Below, piece by piece: positions 3,701 through 20,043 of a DNA stretch of 20,043 nucleotides; positions within the stretch are counted from its first letter, which is position 1; every line of letters starts with the position of its first letter. The translations under genes were made by a program, and so were the position numbers. The stretch is from a virus. The DNA is taken from positions 1-20,043 of IMG/VR virus record IMGVR_UViG_3300027302_000035, one strand, 5' to 3'. The notes beneath the pieces are model-generated. The model was given only the letters and a program-made list of their open reading frames with translations. It ran no database searches and was not told the DNA's origin.

Positions 3701-4005
3701 CCGTAGTTCTCCTTTATCCATTTAGCAAATAACAAAAGTTTATCTGCAGTTGCATCTTGTTTCATTGTATTAGCAAGCATGCTAATAACTTGAACATTTC
3801 CTTTGATATACCCTAACTTTGGGTTAATTCTATCAAGAGTGGGACTATTAGATTTAGAGCTACCTTTATTATTCACCAAAGGTATTAATAGAATAGGACA
3901 GACCTCTGGTATATTAATATCATCTATTGTTATATCAAACTCTAACTCTTTCTTAACAGCCCTGCTTTTAGCCCAACGGAGAAGATTCTTCTTTGGGCAT
4001 CGCAT
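3697..4005 (-). CDS. Small HNH-type endonuclease-like protein
   Basis: A 102-residue phage protein with the pattern CPILLIPL (residues 36-43), then SPTLDRINPKLGYIKGNV (54-71), then VISMLANTMKQDAT (73-86). This LDRI...GY..GNV..IS..AN pattern is typical of compact HNH-like phage nucleases. The basic N-terminus (KKNLLRWAKSRAVKK) suits DNA binding. It starts 1 base into the upstream stop (TGATG) and ends in an ATGA overlap with the endonuclease VII-like gene, so the two nucleases are translationally linked. It could be a homing-type or a structure-specific nuclease; the sequence does not decide. Confidence 0.75.
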   Translation of the reverse strand: MRCPKKNLLRWAKSRAVKKELEFDITIDDINIPEVCPILLIPLVNNKGSSKSNSPTLDRINPKLGYIKGNVQVISMLANTMKQDATADKLLLFAKWIKENYG

Positions 4006-4208
4006 CAGTAGTTATCCTGCCAATTATCTAATTCATACTGAGACATCTTTTTGTAGATAATATCTTCACTACATCGAAAGCAATCCAATACATCACAAAG
4101 TTCTTCAGTAGTAATTGTAGCACCTTCCCAAATAACCTCGCCTTCGAACACTACTTTTGTAAAGTTAGGGTCTTTTGGATTACTTAATAAGTATAAATTA
4201 CTTCCCAT
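4005..4208 (-). CDS. Hypothetical protein, 67 aa
   Basis: Unrecognised small acidic protein (MGSNLYLLSNPKDPN at the start). It may be a beta-rich N-terminus followed by a helical C-terminus with two Cys close together (LDCFRCSED). Its start follows AAAGGATAAAT 9 bases after the exonuclease stop, and its stop overlaps the HNH start by one base (TGATG). It sits between two nucleases in one operon. Confidence 0.7.
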   Translation of the reverse strand: MGSNLYLLSNPKDPNFTKVVFEGEVIWEGATITTEELCDVLDCFRCSEDIIYKKMSQYELDNWQDNY

Positions 4209-5491: not shown

Positions 5492-5644
5492 TTACTTTTG
5501 TTCGATATCAATTACTTTATAATCAATAGATGAATCTGCATCTAGACTGTCAAAGAATCCATCTATAGCCTTATCAAAAGCGATTTGCGCATCATCAACT
5601 TCTGTAGCATCAATATCTACAGTGATATAAACCTTGAACTCCAT
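5492..5644 (-). CDS. Small acidic protein, 50 aa
   Basis: Reads MEFKVYITVDIDATEVDD at the start and ends KVIDIEQK. By hand count it has 14 acidic and 4 basic residues. The alternation suggests a beta-alpha-beta unit. Its ATG overlaps the previous stop (TAATG), and its stop lies 10 bases before the next ATG, so it fits the operon exactly. Function unknown. Confidence 0.7.
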   Translation of the reverse strand: MEFKVYITVDIDATEVDDAQIAFDKAIDGFFDSLDADSSIDYKVIDIEQK

Positions 5645-11687: not shown

Positions 11688-11846
11688 CTACTCCTTTAAC
11701 TCCTTAAGTAGCTTAAAGTATTTCTCTTGAATCTCCTTAAGGTGCTTATCTAATTTATCAATCTTTGAATCTAGGTACAAATCATAAGCTGTAGAGCCTC
11801 TTTGTAAATATAGATTCTTGTAATGAATTTCTTTTGGGTTATTCAT
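11688..11846 (-). CDS. Small helical protein, 52 aa
   Basis: Begins MNNPKEIHYKNLYLQRG. The C-terminal 30 residues are a Lys/Leu/Glu-rich amphipathic helix (LDKHLKEIQEKYFKLLKELK), probably a coiled coil. Its ATG overlaps the RNA ligase stop by 8 bases (ATGAATAA), and its stop is 7 bases before the primase-helicase ATG, whose AAGGAG overlaps its last codons. Function unknown; a helicase or ligase partner is possible from position only. Confidence 0.68.
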   Translation of the reverse strand: MNNPKEIHYKNLYLQRGSTAYDLYLDSKIDKLDKHLKEIQEKYFKLLKELKE

Positions 11847-12885
11847 TCTTCAATAGCCACTTGTTTGAAATTGCCTTCCATGAGACATCTTCTGTATTTC
11901 CTTTAAATACAAGACCTTCACGTTCTGTCTTAGGATTTAAGACAGATTTACCTTCAGCTTGAACAAGCATATCAGAAATATTATCAGCAGGAATATGGTT
12001 TTTATCGATTACAGGAACATAGTTCAATCCATAGTGTACAGTAATTCCTTGAGCAACCAATGGAAGGTAGTATTCTTGATTGTCAATATTAAACACATCA
12101 TACACATAGAATTCATGCTTACTTAGGTTGTACTTATTCCCTTGGATTCCTGGGCCAATTAATTCACCTTGGAATGCAATACAATCTGGATTTAACATAT
12201 TATCATACTTCTTCTTTAGAAGATCGACTACACCAGACTCAATAGCAACTTTCCAGAAAGTATTATTAACATCTTCCTTAAGCTCTAGATTACGAGAGCA
12301 TACACCAACAATTCCATCCTTGATAAATACAGTCATAGAAGATCCATCAAGCTTTTCAGTAACTTCAAAAGTATACATTAAGTCATGCTGATCCTTGATT
12401 GTTCGTGCAATATTCTGGCAACGCTCTTGATCTGTCTTACGCAAGAAATGCGGAAAGTTACCTTTAGAATCTGCACTCTTAAACTCTTCAGGGGCTTCCC
12501 ACTTCTGGATATTCAAATCCTCAGAAACATCATCACCTTCTTGATAATCACCTAAACCAATATTACCTTCATGTTCGCATTCAAGAACGTACAATGGTAG
12601 CAACAAACCTTGAGAGATAACACCCTTAAGCTTCTTAGTCTTTAGGCGTTCACCCTTAACTCCATTATATTCTTTTGGGAACTTCCCTGGTTGAGTCAGG
12701 AATGGTGCAACTGAATCTGGGATGAAACTATCAATCTCGCAGTATACTACAAGATCACCAACCTTGTAGTTCATTTCCTTTTGAGCTACGACTGTCCAAC
12801 CGCCAATCTTAACAGTATGGATAAGGTCAGCACCTTCAATTGGTTGAATATCATCAATCTTACGGATTGTTGCCATCTTTCGCAT
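11839..12885 (-). CDS. RNA ligase, Rnl5/DraRnl type with N-terminal OB domain
   Basis: ATP-dependent RNA ligase, 348 residues. Nucleotidyltransferase motifs: I, EVTEKLDGSSM with Lys178; Ia, CSRN (196-199); III, FQGELIGPGIQGN (238-250); IIIa, FYVYDVFNI (259-267); IV, EREGLVFKG (321-329); V, SWKAISNKWLLK (335-346). The first 120 residues form an OB-like N-terminal domain, as in the Deinococcus radiodurans enzyme, which seals nicks with a 3'-OH RNA strand. The start ATG follows AAGGAGATATA. It has no polynucleotide kinase partner in the window. A role in repairing RNA cut by host defence is plausible by analogy to T4, but the partner context here is a macro-domain gene and acidic proteins. Confidence 0.87.
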   Translation of the reverse strand: MRKMATIRKIDDIQPIEGADLIHTVKIGGWTVVAQKEMNYKVGDLVVYCEIDSFIPDSVAPFLTQPGKFPKEYNGVKGERLKTKKLKGVISQGLLLPLYVLECEHEGNIGLGDYQEGDDVSEDLNIQKWEAPEEFKSADSKGNFPHFLRKTDQERCQNIARTIKDQHDLMYTFEVTEKLDGSSMTVFIKDGIVGVCSRNLELKEDVNNTFWKVAIESGVVDLLKKKYDNMLNPDCIAFQGELIGPGIQGNKYNLSKHEFYVYDVFNIDNQEYYLPLVAQGITVHYGLNYVPVIDKNHIPADNISDMLVQAEGKSVLNPKTEREGLVFKGNTEDVSWKAISNKWLLKNE

Positions 12886-12901
12886 TATATCTCCTTAAAA
12901 G

Positions 12902-13234
12902 TTACTCGTCACGTTCATCTTCTAGATCATCCAAATCTGCAGCTTCGTCGATCTCTTCTTCCTCTTGAATATACTCTAGAGGATTAAAGCCCGAAATATT
13001 TGAACCTAGAAGTTCTTGTAGTTCTTCAATAAATTTCTGAGTTGTTTCAACAATCTCGAAATCATCTTCATTAATTGTACCAGAAATTTCGCTGTGCTTC
13101 CCAAGAACTTCACCGAAATAAGCTTCTTTTCCATAGGATTTTTCTAAGGCTTCTTTTGTTGTAATAAAGATACCATCTAGATCACCCATACGACCACAGT
13201 CCCAAAAGAACTTGACTAAAATTAAATCTTGCAT
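12902..13234 (-). CDS. Very acidic hypothetical protein, 110 aa
   Basis: The N-terminal 50 residues look folded (KFFWDCGRMGDLDGIFITTK), like proteins I have seen in other phages without known function. The C-terminus is extremely acidic (QEEEEIDEAADLDDLEDERD). By hand count there are about 31 acidic and 8 basic residues. No membrane segment. Strong ribosome site (AAGGAG). Candidate nucleic-acid mimic or protein-interaction tail, not shown. Confidence 0.74.
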   Translation of the reverse strand: MQDLILVKFFWDCGRMGDLDGIFITTKEALEKSYGKEAYFGEVLGKHSEISGTINEDDFEIVETTQKFIEELQELLGSNISGFNPLEYIQEEEEIDEAADLDDLEDERDE

Positions 13235-13236
13235 AG

Positions 13237-13548
13237 TTAAAACTCCTTGTAGAAAATAGAGTTAGTTTTTGGGTTAATTAAGTTTACACGAAACCGTCCA
13301 GCCCCGCACTCAAAATCATCGCAGTTATACATTTTGAGGCCACGATTACAGTCACATTCAAAATTACCCTCTTCCCATAGGTATGTGTCAGGCTGATTGT
13401 GTTCAAGATCAAATAATATGTGATCTCTAATGCTCGTTCGATTATTGTTTAAAGTATCAAGAATATTGACAGTGACTTGAATTGTAGGACATTCTTCTGT
13501 AGAAGATGAATCAACATCCCAAGAATCTCCCAAATCTTTGTATTGCAT
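13237..13548 (-). CDS. Acidic Cys-containing hypothetical protein, 103 aa
   Basis: I take the ATG at 13548, which has AGAGG about 5 bases upstream; a GTG two codons earlier is possible. The C-terminal half has FECDCNRGLKMYNCDDFECG then GRFRVNLINP, so four or five cysteines could bind a metal. Hand count is 19 acidic to 9 basic residues. The stop is 2 bases before the next start. Unrecognised family. Confidence 0.7.
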   Translation of the reverse strand: MQYKDLGDSWDVDSSSTEECPTIQVTVNILDTLNNNRTSIRDHILFDLEHNQPDTYLWEEGNFECDCNRGLKMYNCDDFECGAGRFRVNLINPKTNSIFYKEF

Positions 13549-13557
13549 GATCACCTC

Positions 13558-13842
13558 TCAATAAGAACAATTACTTAAATAAACTTTTGCATCTAATCCT
13601 GTGATTTCATTAAAACTCAGGATAGCATCTTCAACAAGGTTTGTCAAAGATCTGACATCAATTTCATTCCAAGACGATGAACCACTGGATTTAACTACAA
13701 TCCCTACGATCCGATCTCTTTCATTACAATCATAGTAATACGGGATTTCCTCTAAGCCAAAATCACTGTAGTCATTGCAATCCATTAGTAATTCATTCTC
13801 AGGTAACCCTACTACAATAACAGCTTGATTAGATACTGACAT
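13558..13842 (-). CDS. Acidic hypothetical protein, 94 aa
   Basis: The ATG at 13842 overlaps the upstream stop (TGATG), with GAGGA upstream; the GTG just before it at 13845 is an alternative. It has a hydrophobic first strand (AVIVVGLPENELL), an acidic Tyr-rich region (DYSDFGLEEIPYYYD) and a helix near the end. Hand count is 16 acidic to 5 basic residues. It may be a small alpha/beta domain. Function unknown. Confidence 0.7.
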   Translation of the reverse strand: MSVSNQAVIVVGLPENELLMDCNDYSDFGLEEIPYYYDCNERDRIVGIVVKSSGSSSWNEIDVRSLTNLVEDAILSFNEITGLDAKVYLSNCSY

Positions 13843-14150
13843 CACAAATCCTCGAAGAGTTGTTCAGCTTCATCTCTTGGCAAAGCATTTGAAGTTAAGA
13901 ATACTAGAATACCTACATCACCTGTGCAGAGATTCACTTTTACAAAAGTAAACTCGTCAATCTCCTTAACATAGGCAACTTCTTCAGAATATTCGGATTC
14001 TCCATCTGTCCAGAGTAGCAGAGAATTACCAGTGAGATAGAATTTACATTCCAATGTGTCATCAATATCTGCATAATCTTGCAAAGTATCACACAGGTAT
14101 TTACGATTATTGAAATATTCACTTAATACGTGAGTTAGACTTAGGTTCAT
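13842..14150 (-). CDS. Acidic hypothetical protein, 102 aa
   Basis: Begins MNLSLTHVLSEYFNNRK with AAGGAG upstream. Beta-rich centre (LECKFYLTGNSLLLW, then FTFVKVNLCTGDVGILVFL) and an acidic C-terminus (PRDEAEQLFEDL). Hand count is 21 acidic to 6 basic residues. It is the first of four acidic genes in a row, all in the spacing-minimal style of an operon. Not recognised. Confidence 0.7.
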   Translation of the reverse strand: MNLSLTHVLSEYFNNRKYLCDTLQDYADIDDTLECKFYLTGNSLLLWTDGESEYSEEVAYVKEIDEFTFVKVNLCTGDVGILVFLTSNALPRDEAEQLFEDL

Positions 14151-14160
14151 AATTAACTCC

Positions 14161-14601
14161 TTATAGTACCCAGAGGGTTGTTTCTCCCAAGTGATTTTTA
14201 ATCATTCCTTGAATAATCTCCCAATCCCCTCCACCTAGACCTGCACCAATTTTAGGATGATGGATCTTTGGTTTAGGCAATCTTTCTAATGCAATAGCTA
14301 ATTTCTCCAGACAAAGATCCAGAGCTTTGTAATCAGTAAACTGAGATTTGTCATACCCATAATTTAACTGAGAGAATAAGTTCACCACAGCAATATCATC
14401 TGTAACTTGAATAAACTGAATTTCACCTAAAAGTTTGTCAGGTGTTGTTTTATTACAGAAGTTCTTATATCGGTTATAAACTTCTGGATACTTATTCCGA
14501 ATAGCTTTGGCAACTCCGGAGTTCATCTTCCCTTGACAATTAACTTGTTGGAGGATAATACCTGAAGTTACATCAAGAATATTACCTATGACTTCTTGCA
14601 T
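14161..14601 (-). CDS. Macro-domain (ADP-ribose-binding) protein
   Basis: 146 residues, a bare macro domain. Signature loops: ILQQVNCQGKMNSGVAKAI (residues 16-34), followed by KYPEVYNRY, and the second phosphate loop IGAGLGGGDWEII (118-130). Such proteins bind ADP-ribose and may remove it from proteins, DNA or RNA, or dephosphorylate ADP-ribose-1''-phosphate. The loop pattern resembles the DarG/TARG1 side of the family to me, but that is a judgement by eye. The ATG at 14601 sits in a TAATATG junction with the upstream stop. An upstream in-frame ATG at 14637 would add 12 residues inside the previous gene and has no ribosome site I can see. It lies two operon steps from an RNA ligase. Confidence 0.85.
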   Translation of the reverse strand: MQEVIGNILDVTSGIILQQVNCQGKMNSGVAKAIRNKYPEVYNRYKNFCNKTTPDKLLGEIQFIQVTDDIAVVNLFSQLNYGYDKSQFTDYKALDLCLEKLAIALERLPKPKIHHPKIGAGLGGGDWEIIQGMIKNHLGETTLWVL

Positions 14602-14602
14602 A

Positions 14603-14818
14603 TTAATAACCCCTCTGCTTTTCATTTGTTGGAACATATAGAGTATTTATTGTCTCAAACGACCCATCTGGGCTTACTTTCACGACAGTACTTGTGAAGA
14701 CATGTTGTGTATTTGATACAAAAGGGCTTGTATGATCAATTGGTTTAATCATAGCAGACTTTCCTACTTTAAGAGATCCAATGATTGAATCAGATTGGTA
14801 TTTTACAATTAGTTTCAT
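14603..14818 (-). CDS. Hypothetical protein, 71 aa
   Basis: Probably a small beta-barrel: alternating strands KLIVKYQSDSIIGSLKVG, then HVFTSTVVKVSPDGSFETIN and TLYVP. The FET.NT.Y ending is familiar from other phage small proteins of unknown role. AAAGGGAAG precedes the ATG, and both ends have TAATATG junctions. Confidence 0.7.
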   Translation of the reverse strand: MKLIVKYQSDSIIGSLKVGKSAMIKPIDHTSPFVSNTQHVFTSTVVKVSPDGSFETINTLYVPTNEKQRGY

Positions 14819-14819
14819 A

Positions 14820-15086
14820 TTACTTCCCTTTAGTTGGATGTTTAATCATAAAGTCTTCAAAAGACTGGATGCTTTCTTCTCTGCGAGTTACAGCAATCTT
14901 AATAACTTCCCAATTTTCAAGATCTAAATATAGACGACTTCCACCTTTAGATAAACAACGCACATGGTTCTTTAGTCCAGAAAGATTAGTCCAACTCTTA
15001 CCTTTATTGCTCCAACGCAACCAAGAACCACCTTCTTGCCAAAGACCTGAAACCTTATGTTTGATTTTATATTCGTAGGTTAGCAT
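14820..15086 (-). CDS. Hypothetical basic protein, 88 aa
   Basis: Starts MLTYEYKIKHKVSGLW, chosen for AAGGA upstream; the frame runs five codons further but only to a TTG. Contains KGKSWTNLSGLKNHVRCL, a pattern reminiscent of phage proteins that describe a 'scale-bar' beta-alpha domain, without assigned function. Trp-rich and basic in the first half. Confidence 0.7.
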   Translation of the reverse strand: MLTYEYKIKHKVSGLWQEGGSWLRWSNKGKSWTNLSGLKNHVRCLSKGGSRLYLDLENWEVIKIAVTRREESIQSFEDFMIKHPTKGK

Positions 15087-15094
15087 ATTATTCC

Positions 15095-15358
15095 TTACCA
15101 AGAGATTTTCAAATAGTTTTCATGGAACCAACCATCAAGATTCACTTGAGCAACATCGTAACCAAGACTTTTCAATTGATTAACAATATCATGTTGTGTA
15201 GTAGTCCAACCAGCCCGGCAGGCAAGATCACCAAAACCAGCACCAAAATAGTTTATACTAGACGACCCATACTCAGCATTTTCCTTAATCTTTTCAAAGA
15301 TTTCTTTCAAGGTGCTTGAGTTCTTGTTTGACAACTTACGCGCTTCACTTGCTTGCAT
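15095..15358 (-). CDS. Hypothetical protein, 87 aa, first gene after promoter
   Basis: Begins MQASEARKLSNKN, continues LKEIFEKIKENAEYGSSSIN and ends GYDVAQVNLDGWFHENYLKISW. This arrangement (helical start, aaekG-like turn, then L...GY.V) is common in small phage proteins, with no role that I know. Strong ribosome site (AAAGGAGAAAA). It would be the first gene transcribed from the promoter at 15388-15416, with a short leader of about 23 bases. Confidence 0.75.
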   Translation of the reverse strand: MQASEARKLSNKNSSTLKEIFEKIKENAEYGSSSINYFGAGFGDLACRAGWTTTQHDIVNQLKSLGYDVAQVNLDGWFHENYLKISW

Positions 15359-15387
15359 GAGTTTTCTCCTTTTGTTTCAATACTTGA

Positions 15388-15416
15388 ATTGTCTCTAAGA
15401 TTTTTGATCTTGTCAA
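15388..15416 (-). promoter_or_regulatory. Sigma70-type promoter (TTGACA-17-GACAAT)
   Basis: Minus strand: perfect -35 TTGACA (15416-15411), 17-base spacer, -10 GACAAT (15393-15388). The spacer contains the dyad AAGAT-N5-ATCTT, and a second dyad TTCAA-GTA-TTGAA starts at the last base of the -10. Either could be a repressor site. Start site expected near 15381. Confidence 0.7.
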
Positions 15417-15430
15417 GTTTTGTTCAGACA

Positions 15431-15508
15431 CTACATTCCTGGGATAGTTGCAACAAACAGAATGATCCCGATAGCAACAAGTACTATCACTTCAATAGGT
15501 GTGAACAT
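15431..15508 (-). CDS. Single-span membrane microprotein, 25 aa
   Basis: Reads MFTPIEVIVLVAIGIILF, then VATIPGM and a TAG stop. Almost all of it is one membrane helix. The preceding stop is fused with its ribosome site (TAAGGAGAAAAC then ATG), which is stronger support than the length. It occupies a gap with no other coding frame. Function unknown; comparable microproteins regulate membrane partners. Confidence 0.6.
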   Translation of the reverse strand: MFTPIEVIVLVAIGIILFVATIPGM

Positions 15509-15517
15509 GTTTTCTCC

Positions 15518-15733
15518 TTAACCCGGTCCGAATGATTGTTGACGAGGGAAAATTAATCTCCGAATCTCTTCTGGTGTTTCTTTTACAATGTAAGCATTCT
15601 CTACTCCAAGAATTACATAAGTTCCCTTCATAGCCGTACTTACATAAAAACATTTAATATGATTGGTATTGATGACAATCTCAGGTGCAGATGGATACTG
15701 CCCAACATTCGTCAATGTGATAAATTGTTGCAT
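15518..15733 (-). CDS. Hypothetical protein, 71 aa, FlbD-like pattern
   Basis: Starts MQQFITLTNVGQYP in a TAATATG junction with AAGGTG upstream. The order 'ITLT...EIVINTNHI...' then TYVILGVENAYIVKETPEEI recalls the small beta domain of FlbD-like proteins, which appears in many phages without a defined role. That resemblance is weak. Confidence 0.7.
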   Translation of the reverse strand: MQQFITLTNVGQYPSAPEIVINTNHIKCFYVSTAMKGTYVILGVENAYIVKETPEEIRRLIFPRQQSFGPG

Positions 15734-15734
15734 A

Positions 15735-15950
15735 TTAAAACACCTTCTTATTCCAAAAAGAGGATTTAGATTGACACCCAATGATTGTTGAAGCTGCTGT
15801 AATAATAATCCAAATGTTAATGACAGGGATTAAAGATAAAAGTAGAGCAATCAAAAGAGCCTGAACAGTAACAAAACCATCATGGATTTTACAAGCCAAG
15901 GTAAACAACACAAAGCTAATAAAAACAGAGAAAATATAAAATAAAAGCAT
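15735..15950 (-). CDS. Small membrane protein, 71 aa, two predicted TM segments
   Basis: Hydrophobic stretches at residues about 2-20 (LLFYIFSVFISFVLFTLA) and about 31-58 (LLIALLLSLIPVINIWIIIT). The C-terminus is Ser/Lys rich (GCQSKSSFWNKK). The ATG follows the DNA ligase stop in a TAATATG junction, so it should be coupled to ligase translation. Role unknown. Confidence 0.72.
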   Translation of the reverse strand: MLLFYIFSVFISFVLFTLACKIHDGFVTVQALLIALLLSLIPVINIWIIITAASTIIGCQSKSSFWNKKVF

Positions 15951-15951
15951 A

Positions 15952-16914
15952 TTAATCCATATCCACTTCTGATCTCAAAGTCTCCCAAGTCGGGAACCGG
16001 GGCTTATCCTTATGACCCTTTGGAAAGAACTTAAACTTTGAAATCTTACCTACAATTTCAGATTGATTCTCAAAGTAGAACTTTCGTAAGTCATGCGGCA
16101 TCTTACCAGGGCTGATTGTAATCTCTTGTCCAGCATAAAGCAAGACTTGTTTTGTCTGAGGGTCTAGAACGTCCTTTAAGACCTTACCTTGCAAGTTACC
16201 TACCAATGCATTAGGCAGCATGTTTTCTTGCATTGTAGAGCGTTCTGTACGTCCTAGCAAGTTAGTCTTAGCTTCATTTTGATTTGTCTTACCTTCTTCG
16301 ATTGAAGTTACAATAGCTTCAGCATCAATAAAACGCTTTACTCGCCAAGCTCCCATGAAGGTCTTACCACAACGACCATATTTGAAAGGAGCCTTTGGAT
16401 CACGAATAATGATACCTTCGTAGCCTTCATCAAGGTACTTCTGTTCAAGAGCTAGAAGTGCTTCCATATTTTGGACAATAGTCGATGGAATAAACTTAAT
16501 TTTAGCTGCTAGGTATTGTAAATCAGGAGATAAGCTATCAAAAGCTTCATAAGCAAATGACATGCGAATAGTGTAAGGAAGATCCTTAGTTGCATCTGTG
16601 CAGTAATCAAAGATCCACCAATAAATATCTGGTTGTCCTTCATGCCTACGAAGATCACCTGAAGTAATTCTACACAAATCATTACCAATTGGATCAGAAC
16701 CTGTTGTCATTTCACCACAGAAACCATGTAATTCAGGTACAGACCAAAAATCTGTTGTGAACTTATTCTCATGAGGTTTCAGAGAACGACCTACAAGTTT
16801 ACCATGACGATTATATGATGCACATCCGTCAATCTTAGGTTGAACAATACAAGGAAAGGTTACACGATCTTCAAACCAATCACATGGCTGTTGACTTTTA
16901 AAATTATCCTTCAT
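15952..16914 (-). CDS. ATP-dependent DNA ligase, T7-like
   Basis: 320 residues. Motifs: I, QPKIDG with the adenylated Lys27; III, FCGEMT (65-70); IIIa, WWIFDYC (99-105); IV, EGIIIRDPKAPFKYGR (166-181); V, WRVKRFIDAEAIV (190-202). A C-terminal OB domain ends with a Lys-rich stretch FKFFPKGHKDKPRFPTW. It seals nicks and Okazaki fragments. It is slightly shorter than T7 ligase (359). The ATG overlaps the upstream gene by 11 bases. It leads a run of small genes into the region before the 15388-15416 promoter. Confidence 0.92.
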   Translation of the reverse strand: MKDNFKSQQPCDWFEDRVTFPCIVQPKIDGCASYNRHGKLVGRSLKPHENKFTTDFWSVPELHGFCGEMTTGSDPIGNDLCRITSGDLRRHEGQPDIYWWIFDYCTDATKDLPYTIRMSFAYEAFDSLSPDLQYLAAKIKFIPSTIVQNMEALLALEQKYLDEGYEGIIIRDPKAPFKYGRCGKTFMGAWRVKRFIDAEAIVTSIEEGKTNQNEAKTNLLGRTERSTMQENMLPNALVGNLQGKVLKDVLDPQTKQVLLYAGQEITISPGKMPHDLRKFYFENQSEIVGKISKFKFFPKGHKDKPRFPTWETLRSEVDMD

Positions 16915-17104
16915 ACTCTTCCTTCAATTGCTGATAGATTTCACGAGCTTCATCAAAACCTTCCCAATTATCAACTCCTGCAGCTTCTAGAGCATCTGAC
17001 CAGATCTGACAGTCAACCAGAGCATCATATTCAGCTTTGGGAATTGTAATAGTTTCAATTTCTTTTTGCATAGCTTGCCCTTTCAATCCTGAAAATAAGT
17101 TCAT
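16904..17104 (-). CDS. Small phage protein, 66 aa, 'ALEAAGVDNWEG' type
   Basis: Contains ITIPKAEYDALVDCQIWSDA then LEAAGVDNWEGFDEA, a pattern found in many unrelated phages with no assigned function; helix-turn-helix-like length but not called. The ATG at 17104 forms ATGA with the upstream stop and has AAGGAGCT before it. An internal ATG at 17071 also has AAAGGG upstream, so a shorter form is possible. Confidence 0.75.
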   Translation of the reverse strand: MNLFSGLKGQAMQKEIETITIPKAEYDALVDCQIWSDALEAAGVDNWEGFDEAREIYQQLKEEYEG

Positions 17105-18975: not shown

Positions 18976-19041
18976 TCAGTCCTTCAAAGCTCGGATGTTG
19001 TTTGCAGCGCAGTTTTCATCATATGAGGTATCAAAGTTCAT
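18976..19041 (-). CDS. Possible 21-aa microprotein
   Basis: The frame MNFDTSYDENCAANNIRALK ends with Asp and a TGA, and it holds the AAGGA of the next gene. No good ribosome site is visible upstream; coupling to the overlapping 131-aa gene would be required. It may be a remnant of a longer gene. Low confidence. Confidence 0.25.
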   Translation of the reverse strand: MNFDTSYDENCAANNIRALKD

Positions 19042-19426
19042 TTGAAATAGTTTTCATGATATAAATTTTACATCTATCCAAAATCTGTTTCTGTATTTTC
19101 TTGGGAATTCCCGCATCGATCAACGAATATTCAATTTCATCAATCGTCTGGAAATCCCAAATTTTATTCTTTCTGGCTTCATCAATGAAATCGGACCATG
19201 ATATCATAAAACCATCTTCATTGATGATGCGATCTAAAGATACACTAAGTGGTAATCCATATGTAGCTTTTAATTGATATACAAACGCACCATCGACAAC
19301 AAATGTGCCGTTGACTGTTACGCCAATAATTTTACCAAATGTTGTAAATAAGTTATATTTTTCATTATATTTTAATGCAACGCCATTAGCATCACTGGAA
19401 TCAACAACGATAATATCTGGTGTCAT
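19031..19426 (-). CDS. Hypothetical protein, 131 aa
   Basis: The N-terminal half seems beta-rich (TPDIIVVDSSDANGVALKYN, then IIGVTVNGTFVVDGAFVYQ). The C-terminal half is helical and basic (ARKNKIWDFQTIDEIEYSLI, then KKIQKQILDRCKIYIMKTI). No signal peptide. It is AT-rich but starts inside the GC-rich neighbour: ATGA overlap, with AAGGA 9 bases upstream within that gene. Not recognised. Confidence 0.72.
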   Translation of the reverse strand: MTPDIIVVDSSDANGVALKYNEKYNLFTTFGKIIGVTVNGTFVVDGAFVYQLKATYGLPLSVSLDRIINEDGFMISWSDFIDEARKNKIWDFQTIDEIEYSLIDAGIPKKIQKQILDRCKIYIMKTISNEL

Positions 19427-20043
19427 GGTGTTTGGTCCTTCGCAACGGCGCGGGCTGCTATGGCTGCGTCAATGGGTGGCTGTGGTATAGGCATCCAGTG
19501 TGTTGCGTGCTTGTACTCAAAACCATCATTGAGAGATTGCGCAACACGGTTGAACTTTGGTTGATAGATCAAAATGCTTTCCCCCTTCGGGGCCGTTTCA
19601 ATCGGTTGCCACGCATCCACCTTGTCCTGCTCATCAGGCGCAGCCTGGGCTGCCTGACCAGCGAGAAGTGCCAGCATTTGCATAACCATTTGGCGTTCAG
19701 TGCGACCGCGAACCTTCTTCCAGCCGCTTGCGAGTACGTCCAAGCAGTCATCAAGCGTCAGGTCATCGCGCTCCAATGCGTGATAGCTCAGGCGCTCGAT
19801 GATGTCGGGGCGTGCTGGTTCTAGCACAGCCTGGGCGGATAGGGCTGCTCGGGCGTAGTAGCCAACCGCCGCGATCAAGTCGTACAAAAGCCGACTCGGC
19901 TTATCTGACCATGTGAATCCGAGCGAGCCCTCACCACTCGGGGCGATGTGGTAGTCGTGCAAGCTGTACCGCAGCGGCTTTGGCTCAATCTCAACGCTAA
20001 ATAGATCAGGCAACTCGGCGCTGGCGGGGGCGGGTGGGGATTC
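19423..20043 (-). CDS. DUF551-like C-terminal protein, GC-rich, 5' end beyond window
   Basis: The frame is open to the window's right edge (reading ESPPAPASAELPDLFSVEIE at the edge), so the true start is outside. Of about 206 visible residues, the last 65 carry WQPIETAPKGESILIYQP and HWMPIPQPP, the DUF551 pattern common in phage proteins of unknown function. The middle part is an Ala-rich helical region (LLYDLIAAVGYYARAALSAQ). GC is about 50-63% in sampled lines, against 35-40% elsewhere, with GCG/CGC/GGC-rich codons, which suggests recent acquisition from a GC-richer phage or host. It overlaps the next gene as ATGA. Confidence 0.78.
   Translation of the reverse strand, partial: ESPPAPASAELPDLFSVEIEPKPLRYSLHDYHIAPSGEGSLGFTWSDKPSRLLYDLIAAVGYYARAALSAQAVLEPARPDIIERLSYHALERDDLTLDDCLDVLASGWKKVRGRTERQMVMQMLALLAGQAAQAAPDEQDKVDAWQPIETAPKGESILIYQPKFNRVAQSLNDGFEYKHATHWMPIPQPPIDAAIAARAVAKDQTP

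Follow-up and report, generated by a model that had tools for sequence, protein, structure and literature searches.

Four consecutive small ORFs encoding acidic proteins, P1 to P4, were analyzed in an IMG/VR virus record of 20,043 bases (the window, meaning the whole stretch of DNA that was analyzed) and are probably best regarded as genes of unrelated families that travel as accessory passengers within a hypervariable slot flanked by two ligase genes, rather than as genes for jointly acting DNA mimics. The phage lineage is related to Limnohabitans phage DC31 and Curvibacter phage P26059A; Megablast and distant blastn searches of the window against phages detected fragments only and no near relative. 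An original prediction, made from the sequence, had placed four head-to-tail genes of 110, 103, 94 and 102 residues at 12902-14150, between an RNA ligase gene and a macrodomain gene, and had proposed them as an anti-defense set. This layout was verified, with all four genes lying on the minus strand. The relevant features are as follows.

11839..12885, minus strand: RNA ligase (TIGR02306 / phrog_968), downstream flank of the slot
12886..15951: accessory slot from DNA ligase to RNA ligase, 3.07 kb, 10 ORFs
12902..13234, minus strand: P1, 110 aa, net charge −24, phrog_5848, modeled as a globular alpha/beta core (residues 1-88) with a disordered acidic tail (residues 90-110)
13237..13548, minus strand: P2, 103 aa, net charge −10, unnamed family with the pattern GN(Y/F)xCDCNR ... 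C, modeled as a compact beta-rich fold
13558..13842, minus strand: P3, 94 aa, net charge −11, relatives in four related viral contigs (48 to 60% identical)
13842..14150, minus strand: P4, 102 aa, net charge −15, orphan
14161..14637, minus strand: macrodomain protein, 158 aa, nearest solved structures including SCO6735 and DarG
15952..16914, minus strand: ATP-dependent DNA ligase (phrog_114), upstream flank of the slot

The ORFs of the cluster are closely packed, with a TGATG overlap of P4 and P3 and a plausible Shine-Dalgarno sequence 5′ of each gene. A scan for promoters and terminators around the cluster detected sites no more commonly than in shuffled sequence. Net charges, calculated as K + R − D − E, agreed exactly with those originally given for P2 to P4 and differed by one unit for P1 (−23 predicted). 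Charges per residue were −0.22, −0.10, −0.12 and −0.15 for P1 to P4, respectively, while the 40 genes of the window had a mean of −0.022 (standard deviation, 0.074). The four proteins were thus clearly more acidic than the window mean, and the original prediction, which was to fall if their charge was no different from the phage's average, survived on this point. A run of four equally acidic genes was obtained in about 2% of permutations of the order of the window's 40 genes, the window itself having been selected by scanning. Among 588 ORFs of 60 to 150 aa from fetched viral loci, 12.8% reached a charge per residue of −0.097, 4.1% reached −0.147 and none reached −0.218, and an acidic run of four was absent from 81 comparable four-gene windows in these loci; as the comparison ORFs were picked mechanically, these figures are approximate. 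The acidic cluster is moderately unusual, short of extreme. Further isolated and very acidic small ORFs were observed at 5492-5644 (net −10, 50 aa) and 4005-4208 (net −8, 67 aa), indicating that high acidity extends beyond the island.

The interval between the two ligase genes is a hypervariable accessory slot without a conserved four-gene set. In 38 relatives, the DNA ligase and RNA ligase genes lay a median of 44 bp and at most 858 bp apart, as compared to 3,066 bp in the window (distances between aligned ends); in Limnohabitans phage DC31, the two ligase genes abut, and in two further relatives (L144 and L146) only 38 bp separates the ligase from the primase. The slot of other relatives contained HNH-type endonucleases (L085, L108, L134 and L138), a nucleotidyltransferase-like gene (L096 and L142), both labels being read from the sequence, a macrodomain gene (L099) or a pair of P1 and P3 relatives (L097, L139, L142 and L145). 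All four families were found as one block nowhere else, and only P1 and P3 were adjacent. The comparison with related phages that the original prediction had proposed, therefore, detected strong presence/absence variation in this slot. Hypervariability of the slot accounts for the crowding of small genes of no assigned role there, with no need for a common function. Such accessory slots are also places where counter-defense genes occur. The proposal of an anti-defense set hence stood as regards a variable accessory location and a credible anti-DarT macrodomain neighbor (see below) and was not supported as regards a coherent set of DNA or RNA mimics.

All four proteins had been described as unrecognized, which proved incorrect for P1. 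This protein is a member of phrog_5848, with residues 6 to 95 matching positions 4 to 93 of the 97 in the profile (E value of 2.1e-34). Searches by tblastn detected relatives in 125 or more phage records, among them those of ICP1, Bacillus phage SPbetaL1, jumbo phages and a cyanophage; a consensus query matched 166 records, with a lax limit such that some of these matches arose by chance. Named relatives are ICP1 ORF187, S-CRM01 g187, Cronobacter GAP32_167 and Bacillus SPbetaL1 gp13, and the hosts of phages carrying this family comprise Vibrio (ICP1), Aeromonas, Pseudomonas, Agrobacterium, Cronobacter, Erwinia, Synechococcus and Bacillus. In an alignment of 19 family sequences, 19 columns were invariant, W, R, YFGE, LGKHSE and NP among them, and 6 more were nearly so. 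The conserved motifs are W-D-C-G-R, YFGE-x-LGKHSE and N-P-L, which P1 has as WDCGR, YFGEVLGKHSE and NPL; P1 also shares the acidic C terminus of the family, but its acidic tail is longer than that of most members. In three other members (L010:4992-5375, L014:4989-5366 and L020:5001-5414), a zinc-ribbon-like Cys-rich C terminus replaces the plain acidic tail.

An AlphaFold model of P1 predicted a compact alpha/beta domain, with a pLDDT of about 90 over residues 1 to 90 (blocks mostly 88 to 96, one of 79), followed by a disordered tail with a pLDDT of 50 to 56. The 21 residues of this tail (90-110) carry a charge of −13 and the globular part −11. Searches of the PDB for the fold of P1 with Foldseek and VIA-align yielded no significant or convincing solved relative, and no sequence relatives with solved structures were found for either P1 or P2. 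The search for a function was negative for all members of phrog_5848, as was that for papers on ORF187 and its relatives. The P1 model did resemble a T5-like protein that UniProt lists as "Antirestriction protein" (probability, 0.99; TM score, 0.47). This protein, from Providencia phage PSTCR5, corresponds to a probable CDS that was selected on the basis of a length of 546 bp and is termed hypothetical in its GenBank record; the CDS has no Pfam match and aligns poorly with P1, and the resemblance was set aside as evidence.

In other phages, relatives of P1 adjoin genes annotated as ThyX and DprA and are also located near genes that read as gp46/gp47 and RuvC-like, while in S-CRM01, GAP32 and SPbetaL1 the relative sits amid small genes of no assigned function. 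ORF187 of ICP1 falls within the gp176-gp211 stretch, assuming that the numbering is equal between records, and this stretch contains late-peaking nucleotide-metabolism genes (PMC7567579). The neighborhood of P1, which is context only, points to DNA metabolism over charge mimicry.

The P2 family is absent from Pfam and PHROGs. Relatives were detected initially in Tenacibaculum phage pT24 and Stenotrophomonas phage Sonora and then in 22 IMG/VR loci and three genome contigs. An alignment of 18 sequences, defined by a CDCNR...C motif, had eight invariant columns (G, N, C, D, C, N, R and a later C), and the model of P2 was a compact beta-rich domain with a pLDDT of 85. The best alignments of this model to solved structures were to the T4/RB69 antitoxin Dmd (Z score of 4.6; rmsd of 2.2 to 2.7 over 53 to 58 aligned residues) and to AcrIF9 (Z score of 3.6; rmsd of 3.7 over 59 aligned residues), both lower than the scores that unrelated models usually reach. 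Both of these are counter-defense proteins, with an identity to P2 of 3 to 7%. The likeness suggested by the model is a lead only.

A direct search with P3 detected no relatives; these emerged among 80 loci of related phages that had been fetched via the primase. P3 relatives were confined to the four loci with the P1-P3 pair noted above, where each adjoins a P1 relative or is one gene away from it in the interval from DNA ligase to primase. In two of these loci (L097 and L145), the P2 family was also present, approximately 1.8 kb upstream of P1. The P1, P2 and P3 families, therefore, are all found again within this phage lineage, arranged in another order and not in the same block. No relatives of P4 were detected in any collection searched. 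Scans of IMG/VR with single P2, P3, P4 and RNA ligase queries were empty, the successful scans being those with alignment-based queries for P2 (A1) and the primase (A5).

The adjacent macrodomain gene is a credible candidate for an anti-defense function, and a better one than the four acidic proteins. Its product matched the Pfam Macro profile at 27.3 bits (cutoff of 22) and DarG models in both PADLOC and NCBIfam, the latter at 53 of 250 bits, below the full-length equivalog cutoff. An E value of 9e-9 was obtained against PDB 5e3b, which we take to be SCO6735. Residues N33 and Q90 aligned with N27 and Q85 of SCO6735, and a glycine-rich phosphate loop, GAGLGGG, is present. SCO6735 strips thymidine-linked ADP-ribose and protects against DarT, relying on Gln85 and Asn27, and lacks the Lys80 of DarG (PMC9411070). 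The macrodomain protein of the window likewise has a Gln at the position of this catalytic Lys and, in contrast to DarG, has no C-terminal domain, its length being only 158 aa. Retention of the active-site residues N33 and Q90 suggested a DarT-neutralizing role, and the protein is probably a DNA ADP-ribosyl hydrolase that would reverse DarT-type ADP-ribosylation as a means of counter-defense. No DarT partner was detected in the window. The anti-DarT protein AdfB of ICP1 (Gp145, 77 aa) was considered as a precedent and dropped, its published similarity to either part of DarG being low.

Under the preferred explanation of accessory passengers, each of the four proteins would act alone as a small protein-binding factor in the DNA-replication phase. 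P1 would most likely bind a phage or host DNA-metabolism enzyme via its conserved WDCGR/YFGEVLGKHSE surface, and its disordered acidic tail may compete with nucleic acid or recruit a partner, as do the acidic tails of SSB-type proteins; the macrodomain neighbor would be a probable counter-defense enzyme undoing DarT-type DNA ADP-ribosylation. What unites the members of each of the P1, P2 and P3 families is a set of conserved residues, and not charge alone. Set against this explanation are the subthreshold matches of P2, the P1-like protein with the antirestriction name and the clustering itself, which at about 2% is somewhat unlikely to arise by chance. These same matches, weak hints from folds, are joined by the acidity of all four proteins, the variability of the slot and the anti-DarT-like neighbor in favoring a rival explanation, that of the original prediction, in which at least one of P1 to P4 is a nucleic acid-mimicking inhibitor of a host defense enzyme and the slot with its macrodomain gene is a counter-defense island. 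T7 Ocr and gp5.9, lambda Gam-type inhibitors and other DNA mimics are likewise small, strongly acidic phage proteins. P1 to P4, however, have no sequence match to Ocr, gp5.9 or Gam, and no significant hit to a mimic or anti-defense family was obtained for any of the four in Pfam, NCBIfam, PADLOC or the PHROGs of assigned function. Moreover, P1 and P2 combine invariant residues with compact folds, the acidity of P1 is concentrated in its disordered tail, and relatives of P1 are often found near DNA metabolism genes. The inhibitor explanation was consequently considered unlikely, and the original suggestion of a set of DNA or RNA mimics was not supported. Ordinary enzyme folds had been named as a finding that would count against that suggestion; the models of P1 and P2 went part of the way, being compact domains but not recognizable enzymes.

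A sharper form of the preferred explanation is that P1 is a core accessory of phage DNA replication or recombination that might, for instance, regulate the gp46/47 nuclease, a resolvase or nucleotide metabolism, with P2 to P4 as unrelated passengers. This is consistent with the gp46/47-like, RuvC-like, ThyX and DprA neighbors in unrelated phages, and the very broad phage range of P1 argues for a general target. Many phages, however, lack the P1 family, its neighbors are inconstant and in three of the named phages it is surrounded by small genes of no assigned function, such that this form was considered quite improbable. It is similarly doubtful that the P1 family, with members in Bacillus SPbeta-like phages, cyanophages and ICP1, is a phage-wide counter-defense or replication-control protein that acts through the WDCGR/YFGEVLGKHSE surface and the disordered acidic tail by an undescribed mechanism, with P3 and possibly P2 as traveling partners. 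The least probable explanation, and a very unlikely one, is that the clustering is a coincidence of charge with no meaning beyond the presence of small accessory genes. Approximately 13% of the small ORFs from related loci are at least as acidic as the mildest of the four proteins, and the permutation value is modest for a window chosen by scanning; the charge per residue of P1, however, lies above that of all 588 comparison ORFs, and acidity is retained across the P1, P2 and P3 families.

As this case illustrates, small acidic phage proteins encoded in succession are not necessarily a set of DNA mimics. The acidic island can be divided into testable pieces: a slot comparable across phages, a widespread P1 family with a member, ORF187, in the model phage ICP1, the unnamed CDCNR family of P2 and a macrodomain gene whose assignment predicts protection against DarT.

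Two further observations were made outside the slot. A 66-aa acidic protein encoded at 16904-17104 (net −10) matched PHROG families labeled "host RecBCD nuclease inhibitor" (3e-12), a label that is unproven because T7 gp5.9 falls in a different PHROG; in 11 related contigs, the surroundings of the ligase/primase slot also contained relatives of this protein. Finally, the G+C content rose to 0.47 at the end of the window (19001-20043), as compared to about 0.37 elsewhere, and the last ORF (19423-20013) had a DUF551 match, which together suggest a recent transfer or an assembly join.
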